From Rickettsiella endosymbiont of Dermanyssus gallinae (GTDB lineage: Bacteria; Pseudomonadota; Gammaproteobacteria; Diplorickettsiales; Diplorickettsiaceae), in contig NZ_CP079094.1 in assembly GCF_019285595.1 (NCBI RefSeq), forward strand, positions 558,001 through 622,000: 64,000 nt of DNA, read 5' to 3'. Shown here in pieces: positions 4,887 to 63,498 of this stretch; within the stretch, counting starts at the first letter, position 1, and each line of letters opens with the position of its first letter. The notes below the pieces were generated by a model. It searched no databases. It saw only the letters and a list, made by a program, of their open reading frames with translations, and was not told the DNA's origin. A program made the position numbers and the translations under genes.

Positions 4887-7110
4887 CTAATATTTTATAA
4901 CAAAATTAGCTGCAAAATTTGGAGGGCGTGATTCTGTTCCTCCTCTATCGCCTGTATTTGGATAGTTTTTAACGGGATTATCTCCACCTGAATAAGCATT
5001 TGAAGCACCACTAAAAGCTTGGAATAAATATTGACCATTAACAGCGGAAGGAGTTGGATGACTATGAATTAAGATTTCATCAAACTGGAATGATCCAATA
5101 CCATTTCCAATCAACCCTTGGCCATAATTAAAATAACGGTCATCTACTTTGACGCTGCCATCTTGATTCCAACCGCGAATAAATGCATCTTGTAAATCAG
5201 GCACAGCAAAACAAAATTGATTGATTGCTATTTTAATTTTTTGAGCCACTTCCGGCATCGTATCCGTTTCGATGAAATCGACTGGAATATTAGTACCTGA
5301 AATAGGAGGCGGTTCACCTTGATCATTTATTCTAGCAAAGACATTAAAGTTTTCGGCGTTCGTTGAAAACGTCCAGTAATCGCCGGGTTTAATCGTGCTT
5401 GCATCGGTACACGTTATACGTGTTAATTGATGTCCGCCTAGAAATTCAGCGAGATAAATAGCGACATCTCTAGCGGTATGTGTCGATAAAAGTGGTAGCA
5501 AGATTGCAGTTAAGTTGGATGGGACAGGATTGGTGCCTTGGCCATTTACAGTGAACCACACTCCGAAGGTATTGGTTGTATTTGAAAATTGAAACCATTT
5601 ACCGGCTAAATTATTAGCAGCAGTACAATTGATGTAGAAAAGAGGTTTTACTCCTGCAACATTTCTTAGTTGAACGATATTAAACCCACTGGTTTTTACA
5701 TCGGGTGCTGAAACAGAAGCGGCTATTTTTCCTTGTACATAAACACGATTAGGGTAATCAGAACTTAGGAAGGCATTGACCGCATAATTATTGCCTGAAA
5801 ATGGCGTTTCTATGCTAAATCCTGATGTTCCTGCTGTACTTGCCCTTGCTGCACCGGATTGATTTGTGGTTAAAATGAGTTGGTTGTTGGCATTAAGGTT
5901 GGCAGTAACAAAGCTAGTACTCGTACCAAATCGATAATACCCTGTTTCTTCATTCCAAAGTTTTTTTGCTAGACGTAGGTAAGGAATATTATCGGCCGAA
6001 GAACCTGATCGTAAATAACGTGTGCCGACACAGAGTAATTCACCCATCTGAGCTTCAGGATAAACAGCAGCAAATATCTTTCCCACATCACCATCATAAA
6101 TAAATAAGCTGCCTTTACCATAATAAACCGGTAAGCCTTCACTTAAACCATCGGGTTCTGGTATTGGTAAAAAATCATGTAGATACTTAATATAGGTCTG
6201 TAATTGATTTAAAAAGGCTTGCAAGGTCAAACCTTGTTTTTGAATATTATCGTAATAACCAATTAAGCCCGTTCCATCTCCTCCATTCGGTAATTGACTA
6301 GCCAATTCCGAACGTAAGGTACTGACATTGGTATTTTCAATTTGGGCTGCGATAATTTGTCCGTTTCGACTGAGCCAGACTTGATTGTCTTTGGTGGTTA
6401 AGATGGGTAATTTATTAGATAAATTAGAAGGTAGATAACTATTAATCACATACTGCAAGCTATCGGTATCTAATTGGGTTTGAAACTGCTGCATAATCAG
6501 CAAAACACGTTCAAAGGCGGCATCTAAGGTATGGCCATTAAAGGTTTGTGCATTGCCAAACTCTGTATCGATACTGACCTGCGATGAGACAGGAAAGCAT
6601 TGTGAAAGCAATGCGAAGTCGAAGAGCCCGCGATAGGCGTGCGTTGACGGGCGAAGCAGGAAACGCATCACGCCGTAAAGTCATTTGTGGGAGGCACGGG
6701 CATGAACTCCGAAGGAGTGAGTGCGTGCCGGACGCAGGACGTATCGCGGCCTAATTTCAGTCGCGTCATGCGAACGAATTTCGGGGACACGATGGCCGAA
6801 ATTCTTCGGGAGCATAGCGACTCACTTGCATGCTACGTACTAAAGTAACAATACTACCGTTGCTAGGTATTTTATCTTGAACAAAGGTAATGGTACCACC
6901 CGTCATGGTTCCCGTATCTTGAACAGTATAATCCTGATTTAAGATACAAAGATCTTTATCCGGATTAGCCGCATCAGTTGGCTGTGTCACATAAACAGCG
7001 ATATCTTCTTCGATCAAGATTAAATAGGTGTAGTTGAAGACAGCCGTTGTACCATCTGCAATATATTGATTAATCGTTTTCTGCTGCGGTAAATAGCTTG
7101 TAATATTCAT
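4887..7110 (-). pseudogene. Phage tail fibre protein, interrupted by the 247-bp element
   Basis: Receptor-binding tail fibre of a podovirus. The N-terminal 94 residues (6829-7110) match the T7 gp17-type tail-attachment domain (ITSYLPQQKTINQYIADGTTAVFNYTY ends with SIVTLVRSM). The rest (4887-6581, 564 residues) carries the shaft and a collar-like C-terminus with HSHPTPSAVNGQYLFQAF. The 247-bp element at 6582-6828 lies between the codons for Met94 and the following Gln, in the opposite orientation. Removing exactly 247 bp joins RSM to QVSIDTEFGN in one frame and gives a 658-residue protein. As sequenced, translation runs into element sequence and stops, so the fibre is not made unless the element is lost. 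A methionine inside the element could start the downstream part, but its first residues are element-derived. Confidence 0.85.
6582..6828 (+). mobile_element. 247-bp structured repeat element, copy 1 (in tail fibre gene)
   Basis: Begins CGATGAGACAGG and ends GCGACTCACTTG, 247 bp, same sequence as five other copies in the window. It sits antisense in the tail fibre gene with no target duplication (left flank gacctg, right flank catgct). It encodes no credible protein; see the copy at 59780 for its internal helices. Confidence 0.93.
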
Positions 7111-18174: not shown

Positions 18175-19087
18175 TTATTTTTTAAATCTTGCTTCAGCAA
18201 CTTCATTAGCAAGACTAATATAGCGGTTCCTATTTTTCTCGGTAGGATTTTTTTGATATTCCTTTGCGATATTGAGTAACTCTGTTCGGCCTTCATAAGG
18301 GTCGGACAGATTGGCACGTTGGTTACTTAAGCCTGGGACTTGGCTATTTAATACTTGATCACGGTGTTTCATGGCATCTGACATGGCGTTTTCGTCTCCT
18401 AAAATCGTATTTAACAAGTGAGTCGCTATGCTCCCGAAGAATTTCGGCCATCGTGCCCCCGAAATTCGTTCGCATGACGCGACTGAAATTAGGCCGCGAT
18501 ACGTCCTGCGTCCGGCACGCACTCACTCCTTCGGAGTTCATGCCCGTGCCTCCCACAAATGACTTTACGGCGTGATGCGTTTCCTGCTTCGCCCGTCAAC
18601 GCACGCCTATCGCGGGCTCTTCGACTTCGCATTGCTTTCACAATGCTTTCCTGTCTCATCGAACGGTGTTATGCAAAGCAGCGGGATATATTTTCGTTAC
18701 ATAATCCTCAACCACTTTCAATTGACTACCGAGCTGCTTTTTACGTTCTTCTAATTGATTTTGGTACTGCAGTTGCTGTTCCTGCATGGATAACAGCGTT
18801 TTATTAAATTGTTCCTGATTTAATCCAGCTGATTTAGCTAATTGCTGTATATCATACAATACAGGTTCAGCTAATGAAACCTCGGGCAAACTATAATTTT
18901 CAGGCACTTCATAGCTTTTAAGCTTTTCTTGCAAAATCTTATTTTCATTAAAGACTTTCGCACTGTTTTTATAGGCTTTTTCTAGTTCTTCGACACTTTT
19001 GTACTTGCCCGCATAGAGTTTAGGTGGTTCAGTGACTACAGTTTCTTCAGTAACTGGATTTACTTCCTCATTATTCGTTGTTTCCAT
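18175..19087 (-). pseudogene. Phage scaffolding protein, interrupted by the 247-bp element
   Basis: Acidic N-terminus (METTNNEEVNPVTEETVVTEPP), a GKYKSVEELEKAYKNS motif typical of scaffolds of T7-like phages, then coiled coil (LSMQEQQLQYQNQLEERKK). The first 142 codons lie at 18662-19087, then the element (18415-18661, same strand), then 79 codons at 18175-18414 ending in KK. Exact removal of 247 bp joins HNTV to LNTILGDENAMSDAM without a frame change and gives 221 residues. With the element present the reading frame stops one codon into it. The gene lies between the portal-side genes and the capsid, as expected. Its N-terminus overlaps the upstream gene by 17 bp. Confidence 0.82.
18415..18661 (-). 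mobile_element. 247-bp structured repeat element, copy 2 (in scaffold gene)
   Basis: Same element on the minus strand, in sense with the scaffold gene. It differs from the common sequence by one substitution I can see (A to G at element position 206, inside a hairpin loop). Flanks in element orientation are accgtt and ttaaat, with no target duplication. Confidence 0.93.
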
Positions 19088-21503: not shown

Positions 21504-21932
21504 TTATGCTTTCTTAGTTTCTTTAAAGTTTCTGCTAATCGAGCTCGTTTTGCTAACAAAGCATCCTTAGAATGCGTTGCTTTTTCTAGTTTTTTTTCAG
21601 GAATTTTTTCACCTTTTTTCATATGGAGTGCTTTACGTAAAGCACCTTCATGCGATGAGACAGGAAAGCATTGTGAAAGCAATGCGAAGTCGAAGAGCCC
21701 GCGATAGGCGTGCGTTGACGGGCGAAGCAGGAAACGCATCACGCCGTAAAGTCATTTGTGGGAGGCACGGGCATGAACTCCGAAGGAGTGAGTGCGTGCC
21801 GGACGCAGGACGTATCGCGGCCTAATTTCAGTCGCGTCATGCGAACGAATTTCGGGGACACGATGGCCGAAATTCTTCGGGAGCATAGCGACTCACTTGT
21901 TTAATTGCTTTTTGAATCCATTTTTTAGCCAT
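21500..21932 (-). pseudogene. Small basic phage protein, interrupted by the 247-bp element
   Basis: A 61-residue Lys-rich protein is recovered when the element at 21653-21899 is removed: 11 codons at 21900-21932 (MAKKWIQKAIK) join 50 codons at 21500-21652 (HEGALRKALHMKKGEKIPEK onward) in one frame. The junction reads QKAIKHEGALRKAL, a pattern familiar from small podovirus proteins encoded next to terminase genes. In the sequenced form only the 11-residue stub precedes element sequence. The start overlaps the end of the terS-like gene by 8 bp. Confidence 0.75.
21653..21899 (+). mobile_element. 247-bp structured repeat element, copy 3 (in small phage gene)
   Basis: Same 247-bp sequence in antisense to the host gene, which codes on the minus strand. 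Flanks are ttcatg and tttaat, with no target duplication. Confidence 0.93.
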
Positions 21933-28809: not shown

Positions 28810-28869
28810 CTTAGATTATCTGGTGGCCGAAGGTGGAATCGAACCACCGACACAAAGATTTTCAGTCTT
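28810..28869. repeat. Attachment site: 60-bp copy of the tRNA-Phe 3' end
   Basis: 60 bp identical to 40327-40386, comprising the 3' 49 bases of tRNA-Phe (with CCA) and 11 flanking bases. It lies between two integrase genes and marks the junction of the prophage and the satellite-like island. The copy lacks the 5' part of the tRNA, so it is not a gene. Confidence 0.92.
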
Positions 28870-38921: not shown

Positions 38922-39546
38922 GTTTCTGCAGGTAGGCCTTGCCAATGCAAGCAAGTATGGATTAAAAACACCCGAAGAAGTAAGAGATAATGGGACGATG
39001 ATTTATCAATCAGGTAATCAATTACTAGAAATATTAGATTCAGTCATCATTGCGCTTGAAAAGAATAACATCGATGATATCAAAAAAGATAAGATAGCTT
39101 TATACGAATTTGCTCAAGAAATGGAAGAGCTTATAAAACCTAGTATATCTATAAATGGTTTAGAATTTGAACTACAAGTAGATAAAAATATAGGAGAAAT
39201 TGTTAGTGACAACATCCGATTGAAACAAATTTTGGCCAATCTCCTATCTAATGCGGTTAAGTTTACCCCTAAGGGTAAGGTTATTTTATCCTTTGAGCGG
39301 ACTACAGGTAAGTTAAAGATAGAAGTATCTGATACGGGTATAGGGATTGATAAAAGCAATCACGATCGAATATTTGAACAATATGAGAAGATTAAGCCTT
39401 CTTACAAAAGCTCAGAATTTACAGGGGTTGGTATGGGTTTATATCTAGTAAAGCAACTCGTAGAAAAGTTAAATGGAAAAATCAGCCTAACGAGTAGTCT
39501 AGGCAACGGCTCAACCTTCCAAGTAGAAGTACCTTTAAGAGGATGA
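38922..39546 (+). pseudogene. Histidine kinase, 3' half only
   Basis: Closely similar to residues 150 to the end of the kinase at 982 (YGLKTPEEV, GNQLLEILDSVIIALEKN, ILANLLSNAVKFTPKG, VSDTGIGID, GMGLYLVKQL) and without the frameshift of that copy. It lacks a start, PAS domain and the H-box with the phosphorylatable His, because the GC-rich stretch replaces them. If that stretch is an artefact, the intact gene would encode a full CDPS-linked PAS kinase. It ends in a clean stop at 39546. Confidence 0.82.
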
Positions 39547-40326: not shown

Positions 40327-40386
40327 CTTAGATTATCTGGTGGCCGAAGGTGGAATCGAACCACCGACACAAAGATTTTCAGTCTT
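40327..40386. repeat. Attachment site overlapping tRNA-Phe
   Basis: 60 bp identical in direct orientation to 28810-28869. It covers the 3' part of the intact tRNA-Phe gene and 11 bp beyond, and defines the right end of the 11.5-kb island. Confidence 0.92.
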
Positions 40387-40413
40387 CTGCTCTACCGACT
40401 GAGCTATTCGGCC
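40338..40413 (-). tRNA. tRNA-Phe (GAA)
   Basis: 76-nt minus-strand tRNA with encoded CCA. Acceptor stem GGCCGAA/TTCGGCC, D-arm GCTCAGTCGGTAGAGC, anticodon arm with GAA (ACTGAAAATCT), T-arm GGTGGTTCGATTCCACC. It serves as integration target; its 3' end is duplicated at 28821-28869. Confidence 0.96.
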
Positions 40414-48910: not shown

Positions 48911-48966
48911 CGGCGCACGCATCTCTACTTTAATGGTAATTAAGGTAGAATATCGAGCAACGCGTT

Positions 48967-49089
48967 ATACTCACAGCAATTGGATTTTTGGCAAGGCGCC
49001 GCGAAAACGAGCCACCGCCGTGTATAGATGATACATGAGGATGGCGAGTTGAGCGGGAACACCGCCAAAAATTCAAGTGCGAAGAGTAT
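48967..49089 (+). repeat. 123-bp inverted-end repeat, copy A (MITE-like)
   Basis: Starts atactcacag and ends gaagagtat, with inverted ends ATACTC/GAGTAT. A diverged copy of the same length lies inverted at 60383-60505. Non-coding. It lies in the ampE-aceE gap, where it may influence aceE expression. Confidence 0.82.
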
Positions 49090-53271: not shown

Positions 53272-54711
53272 ATGGCTGACTTAGAAACTAAAAAGACTGA
53301 AGTGCTGGTGTTAGGGAGTGGGCCAGGTGGTTATACGGCAGCTTTTCGTGCCGCTGATCTAGGGAAAAAAGTCATATTAGTGGAAAAGGATGCGACTTTG
53401 GGCGGTGTTTGCTTAAACGTGGGTTGTATTCCCTCTAAAGCGTTATTGCACGCCGCTAAAGTAATTGAAGATGCGGCCGCGATGAAAGAGTTTGGTGTAG
53501 AGTTTGGTGATCCAAAAATTGATATCAATAAACTCCGTACTTGGAAAGACAGTGTCGTTAAAAAGCTAACCGGTGGTTTATCTATGTTAGCCAAACAACG
53601 TAAAGTAGAAGTGATCCAAGGCGAAGGAAAATTTACGGCTAAAAATGAATTAACGATAAAAACCGCAACAGGTAATCAGGTCGTTCAATTTGAACAAGCC
53701 ATTATTGCGGCGGGATCACAGCCAGTTCGTTTACCTTTCTTGCCAGATGATCCACGTATTATTGATTCAACCGGTGCGCTAGAACTGAAAGAAACAAAAG
53801 GCGATCTTTTAGTATTAGGTGGCGGTATTATTGGTATGGAAATGGCGACGGTTTATCATGCGCTAGGTGCTTCTATTACTGTAGTGGAAGGTGGCAGTCG
53901 AATTATTGGCGGTGCCGATGAAGATATTGTTAAGCCGCTGGCTAAACGCCTCAGTAAACATTATAAATTTATCCTCAATACACGCGTCACCAAAGTTGAA
54001 GCTAAAAAAGATGGCTTGTGGGTTAGTTTTGAAGGTGAGAATGCACCGGATAAACCACAACGTTATGATCGTATTTTATCCGCGGTAGGGCGTAAACCGA
54101 ATGGAAAATTAATTGGTGCCGAAGTTTTAGGTATTGATATAGACGATCGCGGTTTTATTGCTGTGGATAAACAATTAAGAACAAAGGTCGATCATATTTT
54201 TGCGATTGGCGATATCGTAGGTAATCCTATGTTAGCGCATAAAGCAGTGGCTGAAGCGCGTGTTGCGGCTGAAGTGATTGCCGGTAAAAAACACTTTTTT
54301 GAACCGCGTTGTATTCCTTCGGTTGCATATACCGATCCAGAAATCGCTTGGGTTGGATTGACTGAAATGGAAGCCAAAGAAAAAAGTATTGCTTATGAAA
54401 AAGCCGTGTTTCCTTGGATGGCCAGCGGTCGTTCATTAGGTCAGGGACGTGATGAAGGTTTAACTAAATTATTATTTGATCCTAAAACACAACGTGTATT
54501 AGGCGCTGGCATTGTCGGTCCGAATGCCGGTGAATTAATTAGTGAAATTGCCTTAGCGATTGAAATGGGTTGTGAAGCGGAAGACATTGCATTAACGATA
54601 CATCCGCATCCAACACTGTCTGAAACAGTGATGTTAGCCAGTGAAATATTTGAAGGCAGCATTACTGATCTTTACATGCCTAAAAAGAAAAAGGCAGAAG
54701 TCATACGATGA
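53272..54711 (+). CDS. lpdA: Dihydrolipoamide dehydrogenase, C-terminus altered by the 247-bp element
   Basis: FAD enzyme that reoxidises lipoyl groups of the pyruvate and 2-oxoglutarate complexes. GSGPGGYTAAF FAD site, redox disulfide Cys47/Cys52 (GGVCLNVGCIPSKALL), NAD site GGGIIGMEMA, and the C-terminal His446 with Glu451 in HPHPTLSE. The reading frame runs into the element at 54706 and stops two codons inside it (VIR). Without the element the frame would continue for nine more codons to 54982. The catalytic body is complete, so the enzyme should work. Confidence 0.95.
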   Translation: MADLETKKTEVLVLGSGPGGYTAAFRAADLGKKVILVEKDATLGGVCLNVGCIPSKALLHAAKVIEDAAAMKEFGVEFGDPKIDINKLRTWKDSVVKKLTGGLSMLAKQRKVEVIQGEGKFTAKNELTIKTATGNQVVQFEQAIIAAGSQPVRLPFLPDDPRIIDSTGALELKETKGDLLVLGGGIIGMEMATVYHALGASITVVEGGSRIIGGADEDIVKPLAKRLSKHYKFILNTRVTKVEAKKDGLWVSFEGENAPDKPQRYDRILSAVGRKPNGKLIGAEVLGIDIDDRGFIAVDKQLRTKVDHIFAIGDIVGNPMLAHKAVAEARVAAEVIAGKKHFFEPRCIPSVAYTDPEIAWVGLTEMEAKEKSIAYEKAVFPWMASGRSLGQGRDEGLTKLLFDPKTQRVLGAGIVGPNAGELISEIALAIEMGCEAEDIALTIHPHPTLSETVMLASEIFEGSITDLYMPKKKKAEVIR

Positions 54712-54952
54712 GACAGGAAAGCATTGTGAAAGCAATGCGAAGTCGAAGAGCCCGCGATAGGCGTGCGTTGACGGGCGAAGCAGGAAACGCATCACGCCGT
54801 AAAGTCATTTGTGGGAGGCACGGGCATGAACTCCGAAGGAGTGAGTGCGTGCCGGACGCAGGACGTATCGCGGCCTAATTTCAGTCGCGTCATGCGAACG
54901 AATTTCGGGGACACGATGGCCGAAATTCTTCGGGAGCATAGCGACTCACTTG
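54706..54952 (+). mobile_element. 247-bp structured repeat element, copy 4 (at lpdA 3' end)
   Basis: Same element, same strand as lpdA; supplies the present lpdA stop codon (the tga of cgatgag). Flanks gtcata and aacaga, with no target duplication. Confidence 0.93.
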
Positions 54953-59249: not shown

Positions 59250-60399
59250 ATGGCTTGGTTAGAACTTACTATTCAAACAAAAGAAAGCGATACTGAATCA
59301 GTCAGTGATTTTTTAGAGCAAGCCAACGCGGTTTCAATTACCTGGAAAGCCGCCGATGAACAAGCGTTGTTTGAACCTGATTTAAACACCTCGCCTTTGT
59401 GGCAACGTGTAGAGGTGAATGCATTATTTTCAGAAGACACGTCTATCTCCGACTTAATGGATGCATTGCAACGTGAATTTGATGACAAAACAATTTTAAA
59501 ATCCAGTGTTAAAGTCGTTCTCGATAAATGTTGGGAACGTGTTTGGCTAGATGATTTTAAAGCCATGCGTTTTGGACAACGTTTATGGGTTTGCCCAACC
59601 ACGATGGAAGCGCCTGATCCCTCGGGTGTTATCGTTCGATTAGATCCCGGTTTAGCCTTTGGTACCGGCACACATCCCAGTACCGCATTGTGTTTAGAAT
59701 GGTTAGATGCCCATATGCAAAGCGGGCAAACGCTGATTGATTATGGATGCGGTTCCGGCATTTTAGCGATTGCGGCATTCGATGAGACAGGAAAGCATTG
59801 TGAAAGCAATGCGAAGTCGAAGAGCCCGCGATAGGCGTGCGTTGACGGGCGAAGCAGGAAACGCATCACGCCGTAAAGTCATTTGTGGGAGGCACGGGCA
59901 TGAACTCCGAAGTAGTGAGTGCGTGCCGGACGCAGGACGTATCGCGGCCTAATTTCAGTCGCGTCATGCGAACGAATTTCGGGGACACGATGGCCGAAAT
60001 TCTTCGGGAGCATAGCGACTCACTTGAAAATGCGGTGCAAAAAAAGTGTTTGCGGTTGATCATGATGAGCAAGCCATTGAAGCGACGCAAGCTAACGCGT
60101 TACAGAATGCTATTCCACCGGAGCAAATAAGCTGTTTATTTCCACAGCAATTGACGCAGGATATTAAAGCGGATGTACTGATGGCGGATATTCTTGCAAA
60201 ACCCTTGATGGATTTAGCGAAGGTGTTTAAACAGCACCTGAAAAAAGACGGACTCTGTGTTTTGGCGGGCATCTTAAGTGAGCAAGTAGAAAGTATTCAG
60301 CAGCATTACGTTGAGCAAGGTTTTAGCTGTGTTGATATTCAACATAAGCATGAATGGGCAAGGATAGTCTTTTCTCTTCCAAATACTCTTCGCACTTGA
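59250..60399 (+). pseudogene. prmA: Ribosomal protein L11 methyltransferase, interrupted by the 247-bp element
   Basis: PrmA trimethylates ribosomal protein L11 using SAM. The 5' part (59250-59779) carries the N-terminal domain and the SAM site start (DPGLAFGTGTHPSTALCLEWL, LIDYGCGSGILAIAA); the 3' part (60027-60399) holds FAVDHDEQAIEATQANALQN and MADILAKPLMDL (usual N-I-L-A motif). The element lies after two bases of the Leu codon in AIAALKCGA. Removing 247 bp restores AALKCGAKKV and a 300-residue protein, against 293 in E. coli. Because the family has a conserved Leu there, the site and length of the insertion are well determined. Without excision the product ends after AAF. PrmA is dispensable in E. 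coli. Confidence 0.93.
59780..60026 (+). mobile_element. 247-bp structured repeat element, copy 5 (in prmA)
   Basis: Reference copy for structure, in element positions: hairpin 16-21/28-33; stem 55-64/81-93 with a bulge; 112-117/143-148 enclosing 125-129/133-137; 179-183/236-240 and 187-190/231-234 enclosing a 9-bp stem 195-203/215-223; ends 1-7 pair with 240-247 leaving one bulge. This copy has G134 to T, which breaks one pair. It lies in sense with prmA; flanks gcatt and aaaatg. Confidence 0.94.
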
Positions 60400-60505
60400 A
60401 TTTTTGGCTATGTTGCCGCTAGCCTCGCAATCCTCATGTATGTTGTATACACTGCGGTTGCTCGTTTTCACGGCGCCTTGCCAAAAATCCCATTACTGTG
60501 AGTAT
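60383..60505 (-). repeat. 123-bp inverted-end repeat, copy B (MITE-like)
   Basis: Diverged inverted copy of 48967-49089 of the same 123-bp length, ends atactc and gagtat. It overlaps the last codons of prmA (through CTTCGCACTTGA) and precedes hemA by 17 bp. Confidence 0.82.
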
Positions 60506-60522
60506 ATAATTTTTAAACTTTT

Positions 60523-62795: not shown

Positions 62796-63498
62796 TTAAA
62801 GAAGGCTAGCCCTTTCTTTCGATGAGACAGGAAAGCATTGTGAAAGCAATGCGAAGTCGAAGAGCCCGCGATAGGCGTGCGTTGACGGGCGAAGCAGGAA
62901 ACGCATCACGCCGTAAAGTCATTTGTGGGAGGCACGGGCATGAACTCCGAAGGAGTGAGTGCGTGCCGGACGCAGGACGTATCGCGGCCTAATTTCAGTC
63001 GCGTCATGCGAACGAATTTCGGGGACACGATGGCCGAAATTCTTCGGGAGCATAGCGACTCACTTGTGTTTTCTTATTGCGAGCAATGACCGTTTGAATG
63101 CTTGGCATCATCTGGTTAACCACGGAACCAATGACGGTGTGTGCAAAATCCATACCTATTTTTTCTGCCGCCTTACGTCCATCTGAAGACCAATAAGCCG
63201 ATTGATTATCGGGACGGCATCCTCCTTCTATGGGGGAAAATAGCTTTTTTAATTGTTGATATAAGATGGAAATTTTTTTCTCAATTTCGGGTGTCCAATT
63301 TATTTTATTATTTTCAGAAGGAAAATACGGCCTGTTTTTTAATTCTTTTTTTAATTCTATTAATAGGTTCAAAAACCCTTTAGCAATACGATGCTCATAT
63401 CCCGCTTGAAGTTGTATTTTTTCGTGATCGACCTTGTTTCGTATCTGTCCCGCGAATTTCTGGGTCAGTAATATTTCCTTATTGATGACATTGCCCAT
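62796..63498 (-). pseudogene. Hypothetical protein, C-terminus altered by the 247-bp element
   Basis: 144 codons (63067-63498, MGNVINKEILLTQKFAGQIR start) followed by the element at 62820-63066 and then seven codons (KERASLL) to a TAA at 62796. Removal of the element gives a 151-residue protein ending KKTKERASLL. With the element, about 20 element-coded residues follow NKKT before a stop, so only the tail changes. The start at 63498 is chosen over a TTG at 63528. No known domain; a Trp-rich, charged helical sequence. Confidence 0.7.
62820..63066 (+). mobile_element. 247-bp structured repeat element, copy 6 (near gene end)
   Basis: Identical in length and ends to the others, antisense to the host gene. 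Flanks tttcttt and tgtttt, with no target duplication. Confidence 0.93.

Follow-up and report, generated by a model that had tools for sequence, protein, structure and literature searches.

How does a 247-bp sequence without a gene of its own come to be scattered over a bacterial chromosome, and what decides where it inserts? The question is raised by a stretch of 64,000 nucleotides (hereafter the window) that spans positions 558001-622000 of the 1,888,715-bp chromosome of the Rickettsiella endosymbiont of Dermanyssus gallinae and contains six copies of such a sequence. Rickettsiella DGE, the symbiont of the poultry red mite, has a circular chromosome that was assembled, according to the passages of its genome report covered here, from long and short reads at 3,712x (PMC8446615), which argues against the repeats being an artefact of assembly.

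A first-pass annotation of the window had described six copies of exactly 247 bp, richer in GC than their surroundings, beginning with CGATGAG and ending with CACTTG. Each of these points is confirmed: four of the copies share one sequence and the other two each depart from it by a single base (Table 1), the GC content is 56.3% for the element and 39.1% for the window, and the first 28 bases of the element find six matches in the window where shuffled sequence leads one to expect 0. Over the whole chromosome, allowing at most 3 mismatches, the first 28 bases mark 140 5' ends (74 on the plus and 66 on the minus strand) and the last 28 bases mark 139 3' ends. When all 140 copies were compared with 1.2 kb of flank on each side, 138 proved to be full-length, running from CGATGA to CACTTG, and 76 of them are identical; the mean pairwise difference among copies is 0.87 bases, or 0.35%. 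The copy at 656231 has lost 2 bases and acquired a few substitutions. The copy at 919325 stops after 37 bases, and no 3' end follows in the 1.4 kb examined. The earlier description of a recently active, non-autonomous element is supported by the 138 full copies and the 76 identical ones among them. So many near-identical full copies amount to a recent burst in a host-restricted bacterium, and the mover was therefore probably active not long ago.

The limits of the element had been derived from five interrupted genes, in each of which the deletion of exactly 247 bp was said to restore a single reading frame. Such restoration cannot fix a boundary, because a deletion of 244 or 250 bases would restore the frame just as well as one of 247, all three lengths having the same remainder when divided by three. 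Moreover, a long frame open on both sides surrounds three of the six window copies (6582, 18415 and 59780); the copy at 54706 sits right where a gene ends, and those at 21653 and 62820 have no such long frame. The boundaries themselves hold, as judged from empty sites in G015, a genome of the same genus in which no copy of the element was found. Within 380 kb of this genome, both flanks could be placed on one strand at a plausible distance for 22 of the 140 copies, and 11 of these 22 have a clean empty site. At six of them the alignment reaches the junction from both sides with nothing between; at 656231 the spacing is 2, equal to that copy's own 2-base deletion; and at 962577, 1319284, 1174373 and 1199530 there are mismatches beside the junction, with the spacing unchanged. 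We set aside 612706, 620820 and 919325 (an extra segment in G015 or a truncated copy), 866775, 966515, 1035188, 1078566, 1205587 and 1292408 (aligning away from the junction, with a spacing that differs by 1-34 bases), 1722929 (equal spacing, alignment only 52 bases away) and 1588905 (inside another repeat). At the 11 clean sites insertion took place between adjacent bases, with no base duplicated, lost or added, and a permutation test found no similarity between left and right flanks above the permuted level. The absence of a target duplication, which the first-pass annotation had claimed, is thus borne out at orthologous loci.

Both ends of the element obey a rule that is absent from that annotation and is new here: the target and the element's own 3' end each read CNNN. 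All 140 copies in the chromosome have C as the fourth base to the left of the insertion (position -4), the 138 full copies and the two others alike; given 17% C, the chance of this is about 10^-106. Elsewhere in the left flank, 92 of the full copies have T at -5, and a single one has C at -2. At 10 of the 11 clean empty sites the C at -4 is already present in G015. It also recurs at 43 of 44 junctions in relatives. This set was obtained from 48 rows by removing five chance matches of the loose pattern (none with C) and one duplicate locus (L025, the same as L007); at L013 the C falls at -4 once a start called one base too early is corrected, after which the pattern set reads 42 of 42, and a profile search for loci missed by the pattern added L235 (C) and L230 (T). 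The sole exception, L230, is a diverged copy, 75% identical, with T at -4. Starts of single-copy elements in the relatives were placed by homology. At the other end, the last four bases are CTCG in G008, CTGA in G012, CTGG in G109 and CTTA in G341, next to CTTG in the present chromosome, and since all of them start with C, both presumed cut sites read CNNN. The three bases that follow the C on the left are in most cases already present in the empty site, and the corresponding three on the right are fixed in the element.

Table 1. Copies of the 247-bp element in the window and features of copy 1 (positions in the window; element positions count from the first base of the element).
Feature	Window position	Strand	Element position	Remarks
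Copy 1	6582..6828	+		Inserted in antisense into an open frame
Copy 2	18415..18661	-		Substituted once, at position 206; inserted in sense into an open frame that has no Pfam family
Copy 3	21653..21899	+		Without a long open frame on both sides
Copy 4	54706..54952	+		3' end of a dihydrolipoamide-dehydrogenase-like gene
Copy 5	59780..60026	+		Substituted once, at position 134; interrupts a prmA-like gene in sense; G015 has the exact empty site
Copy 6	62820..63066	+		Outside any long frame open on both sides
Target tetranucleotide CNNN	6578..6581	+		Here CCTG, immediately left of copy 1
GGA	6592..6594	+	11-13	Just 5' of the left-end hairpin; invariant in 16 of 16 aligned sequences
Left-end hairpin	6597..6614	+	16-33	GCATTG...CAATGC
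Conserved multi-branched core	6626..6751	+	45-170	126 bases; closed by GCCCGCGATA / TATCGCGGCC
Right-end imperfect hairpin	6759..6822	+	178-241	Stops six bases before the 3' end
Last four element bases CTTG	6825..6828	+		Right-end counterpart of the CNNN target

Between its two ends the element has a conserved fold. A consensus computed from 13 sequences of eight genomes of the family, the present element included, contains 53 pairs, 12 of which have changed on both sides; shuffles give a mean of 6.2 such pairs, and when the partners are slid by 1-3 columns 1-4 remain. The first-pass annotation had proposed several stem-loops closed by pairing of the two ends; this terminal pairing lies outside the conserved fold. 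Across element positions 45-100, 56 of 56 bases are shared with G001, 48 of 56 with G109, which belongs to another family, 35 of 56 with G341 and 26 of 56 with G327. The left-end hairpin is absent from the consensus fold; by eye, most relatives have other bases there that still pair. The GGA beside this hairpin could act as a guide that pairs with the TC of the target, in the manner of the IS608 guide. Guide-like words also occur elsewhere in the element (AGGAA at 77, AAGGA at 131), and the match is not unique.

Is one of the two strands preferred when the element inserts? In the parts of the chromosome examined, the sign of the GC skew switches near 950 kb and again at the contig ends, which divides the chromosome into two replichores. 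For 95 of 138 copies the lagging-strand template carries the top strand of the element, where the availability of C leads one to expect a fraction of 0.46 (p = 7e-8). This orientation is seen in 60 of the 76 identical copies and in 35 of the 62 non-consensus copies, the latter showing no clear bias (p = 0.006 for the difference); the weaker bias of the variant copies could mean that they have been rearranged after inserting or that the element has changed its habit. Copies in open frames number 59 of 138 (control points: 1003 of 2000), 30 of them sense and 29 antisense, and because the two are so evenly balanced the bias was not created by the orientation of genes. For the same reason, splicing or translational bypass at the gene insertions is rejected.

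The copies are clumped, with 44 gaps shorter than 2 kb where 19 are expected (the largest of 2000 simulations gave 33), and neighbours within 10 kb share variants 9 times compared with 3.1 in shuffles, 11 of 5000 of which reach 9. In one such place (L110, 1631106-1634970 of this chromosome, genome G000) three copies lie within 1.5 kb, and one piece of a secretin-like gene (with an STN domain) is bordered by at least two of them, so that this gene is likely inactive. Among the 30 targets interrupted in sense, 11 have a Pfam family and the other 19 have none (29 were searched by their larger side only, at E ≤ 1e-6, and prmA separately). The 11 comprise an integrase, a restriction methylase, an FAD-dependent oxidoreductase, PhyH, a transposase, two ankyrin proteins, a SurA/PpiD-type isomerase, a histidine kinase, a secretin and PrmA; we take these 11 of the 30 to be accessory, and an essential gene may be among the other 19. 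In the dihydrolipoamide-dehydrogenase-like gene, the present stop codon (54709-54711) is supplied by copy 4, within its first bases (54706-54711).

How far does the element reach beyond this chromosome? Within the order it is borne by 9 of 16 genomes, all of one family. In an even draw of 369 Gammaproteobacteria genomes, with two candidates scored per genome, 10 match, 8 of them outside the family; of these, G106, G109, G327, G139, G341 and G342 were accepted as distant bearers on alignment and profile. G095 and G031 were judged chance matches. Plasmid and phage collections yielded no match to the element, nor did IMG/VR with two stricter patterns. A loose 16-mer found 12 stretches in IMG/VR, with a best profile E of 0.067, which we take as chance. 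Rfam gave no match at the gathering score and, at E ≤ 5, only a chance-level miRNA match, and no description of the element appears in the titles and abstract beginnings of the literature covered (a scope outside which most subscription papers fall) or in the passages of the Rickettsiella genome papers. The statement of the first-pass annotation that the element belongs to no named family agrees with both results.

Other repeats occur in the same window. A second one of about 124 bp, partly palindromic, stands at 48966-49089 and 60383-60506; it has dozens of matches on both strands of G015, which carries it widely though without the 247-bp element. An identical 60-bp direct repeat is found at 28810-28869 and 40327-40386, at a tRNA-Phe gene (40338-40413), and its two copies are possibly the attachment sites of an integrated island of 11.5 kb. 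Finally, a block of about 0.6 kb is present in two diverged copies, 78-89% identical, at 1464-2046 and 38955-39536.

What kind of reaction could produce such insertions? At either end the presumed cut falls 3' of CNNN, and both cuts are on one strand; the right-hand bases are fixed in the element, and the left-hand bases are already present in the empty site. Together these features point to single-strand cut-and-paste. Junctions of this kind are unlike the products of overlap recombinases, of staggered-cut DDE transposases or of target-primed reverse transcription. We therefore hold it to be probable, with some reserve, that the 247-bp sequence is a gene-less mobile element that transposes as single-stranded DNA by means of a putative enzyme acting in trans. 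This enzyme, whose gene would lie elsewhere, would cleave one and the same strand at either end of the element, each time 3' of CNNN; a single-stranded circle, joined at CTTG|CGATGAG, would be released and would then be reinserted 3' of a new CNNN, preferably in the lagging-strand template. The 126-base core might serve as a structured cofactor, either as single-stranded DNA or as a read-through RNA, that recruits the enzyme. From the anatomy we infer a single-stranded intermediate, HUH-type chemistry, a guide role for GGA and an enzyme supplied in trans.

Transposition by single-strand cut-and-paste has been described for IS608 and ISDra2, which, in the passages of the review covered here, target the lagging strand, carry subterminal hairpins and have one tetranucleotide beside the left end and another as the last four bases of the right end (PMC6006769). 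Like these members of IS200/IS605, the element makes no duplication, echoes its left-flank motif in its last four bases, has subterminal hairpins at both ends and favours the lagging template (a bias that is unclear in the 62 variant copies). It differs from them in its large conserved folded core, in its 140 copies, among which no autonomous one was found, in having a single fixed target base, C at -4, and in that a Y1_Tnp search detected no match in the 16 genomes of the order (E ≤ 0.001; control positive in 5 of 14; 13 of the 16 genomes at least 90% complete). The IS200/IS605-like route proposed in the first-pass annotation is consistent with CNNN at both ends, the lagging bias and the end hairpins; membership in the family itself fails because the 16 genomes yielded no Y1 transposase. 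A search for Y2_Tnp likewise had no match in these 16 genomes, and no control genome matched either. All of the behaviour would also be explained by an ordinary miniature element of IS200/IS605 that has recently lost its Y1 transposase or has it on a replicon missing from the assembly, and Y1 genes are indeed present in three of the six distant bearers. However, none was found in G106, G341 and G342, and an element lies near 1 of 13 Y1 loci (L203), where a gene-less copy, complete by eye, stands about 0.65 kb from the Y1 match and does not enclose it; the plasmid and phage collections also speak against such a replicon. All in all, we regard an ordinary miniature element as unlikely. Several observations weigh against our own single-strand reading as well: no Y1 transposase was found in the order, known Y1 targets are whole tetra- or pentanucleotides where a single base is fixed here, L230 has T at -4, the guide match is not unique and the non-consensus copies show no clear bias. 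To our knowledge, moreover, Y1 elements need only end hairpins and guides, and the conserved core has no place among these.

Could the element instead travel as RNA, being transcribed and then either reverse-spliced into DNA, as a group II intron would be, or copied by target-primed reverse transcription? The conserved folded core with its compensatory changes would suit such a route, and G-T pairs outnumber A-C pairs on the top strand by 48 to 10 (in a structure chosen with G-U allowed), an excess that fits folding of the top strand; in single-sequence folding the bottom strand does better, with a z-score of -3.8 versus -2.6. Group II introns likewise insert without duplication and can favour the lagging template. 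Against this, RVT_1 was detected in none of the nine element-bearing genomes of the order and in 1 of its 16 genomes, the element-free G015 (L155, 195260-195823), which runs counter to the RNA-based route put forward in the first-pass annotation. Furthermore, the 140 5' ends and 139 3' ends, at no more than 3 mismatches, leave no 5'-truncated series, the target has one fixed base and not a long exon-binding match, a search of copy 1 with its flanks yielded no sigma-70-like promoter, and Rfam returned no intron match. We consider this route decidedly unlikely.

Group II introns share their folded RNA-like core and lack of duplication with the bridge-RNA elements of IS110 and with HEARO/IscB RNA, and the element resembles all three in these respects; it is unlike them in having no Rfam match, no reverse transcriptase in the nine bearers of the order and no dinucleotide shared by the junctions. 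An insertion of the IS110/IS1111 type, in which the element would be a stripped, RNA-only copy placed by a bridge RNA, accounts for the absence of duplication and for the core. IS110 chemistry, however, leaves the same core dinucleotide at both ends and its targets match over about ten bases, whereas here the left bases vary, the right bases are fixed, no dinucleotide is common to both junctions and one target base is constant. The published IS counts for this genome, as given in the passages covered (8 IS256, 4 IS481, 4 ISNCY and 3 IS5; PMC8446615), name no IS110 and no IS200/IS605. The IS110-like route, which the first-pass annotation had also offered, finds no support at the junctions or in these counts, and we find it very improbable. 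Site-specific integration by a tyrosine recombinase, Tn916-like or integron-like, deserves hardly any credence: integrase genes do lie near and even under copies (Pfam; by eye), but coupling bases from donor sites would vary at either end, and here the three left bases are mostly those of the empty site and the three right bases are fixed.

The only 3' end without a matching 5' end (L154, G000:478554-478581) was considered as part of an autonomous element and rejected, as it does not lie in a long version of the element; it is located about 40 bases beyond an open reading frame read by eye as a transposase of the IS256 family.

Gene-less repeats of other kinds also invite comparison. REP/REPIN sequences with their RAYT (TnpA-REP) are similar in that they bear hairpins, are multicopy and rely on a mobiliser in trans; RAYT carries a Y1 domain, and the Y1-domain search of the 16 genomes of the order found no RAYT gene. 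REPs measure 21-65 nt, have a GTAG/GTGG foot, lie largely between genes and occur near a Y1 gene, according to the passages covered (PMC6006769). The element, at 247 bp, has other ends, no Y1 gene was found for it in the order, and 59 of its 138 full copies sit in open frames. ERIC, NEMIS and other proteobacterial MITEs are likewise short, structured and gene-less. Those of the ERIC/NEMIS type are near-palindromes, often with a TA duplication, and the element differs in being no simple palindrome and in making no duplication.

In conclusion, the 247-bp element described here likely represents a new family of non-autonomous elements that probably transpose as single strands. A more tentative proposal, to which we give less than even weight, is that it stands for a new class of mobile element. 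In this view a conserved folded nucleic acid would spread through Gammaproteobacteria by cuts on one strand, each 3' of CNNN, made by an enzyme that belongs to none of the known Y1, Y2 and reverse-transcriptase families, and the folded core would be an indispensable component of the moving machinery. A search for the mover can start directly from the one-base target rule, from the empty sites and from the conserved core. If this mover is not a Y1 enzyme, a further system of single-strand transposition awaits description; if it is, the element illustrates how a genome can be overrun by a passenger without a gene of its own even though no gene for such an enzyme was found there.
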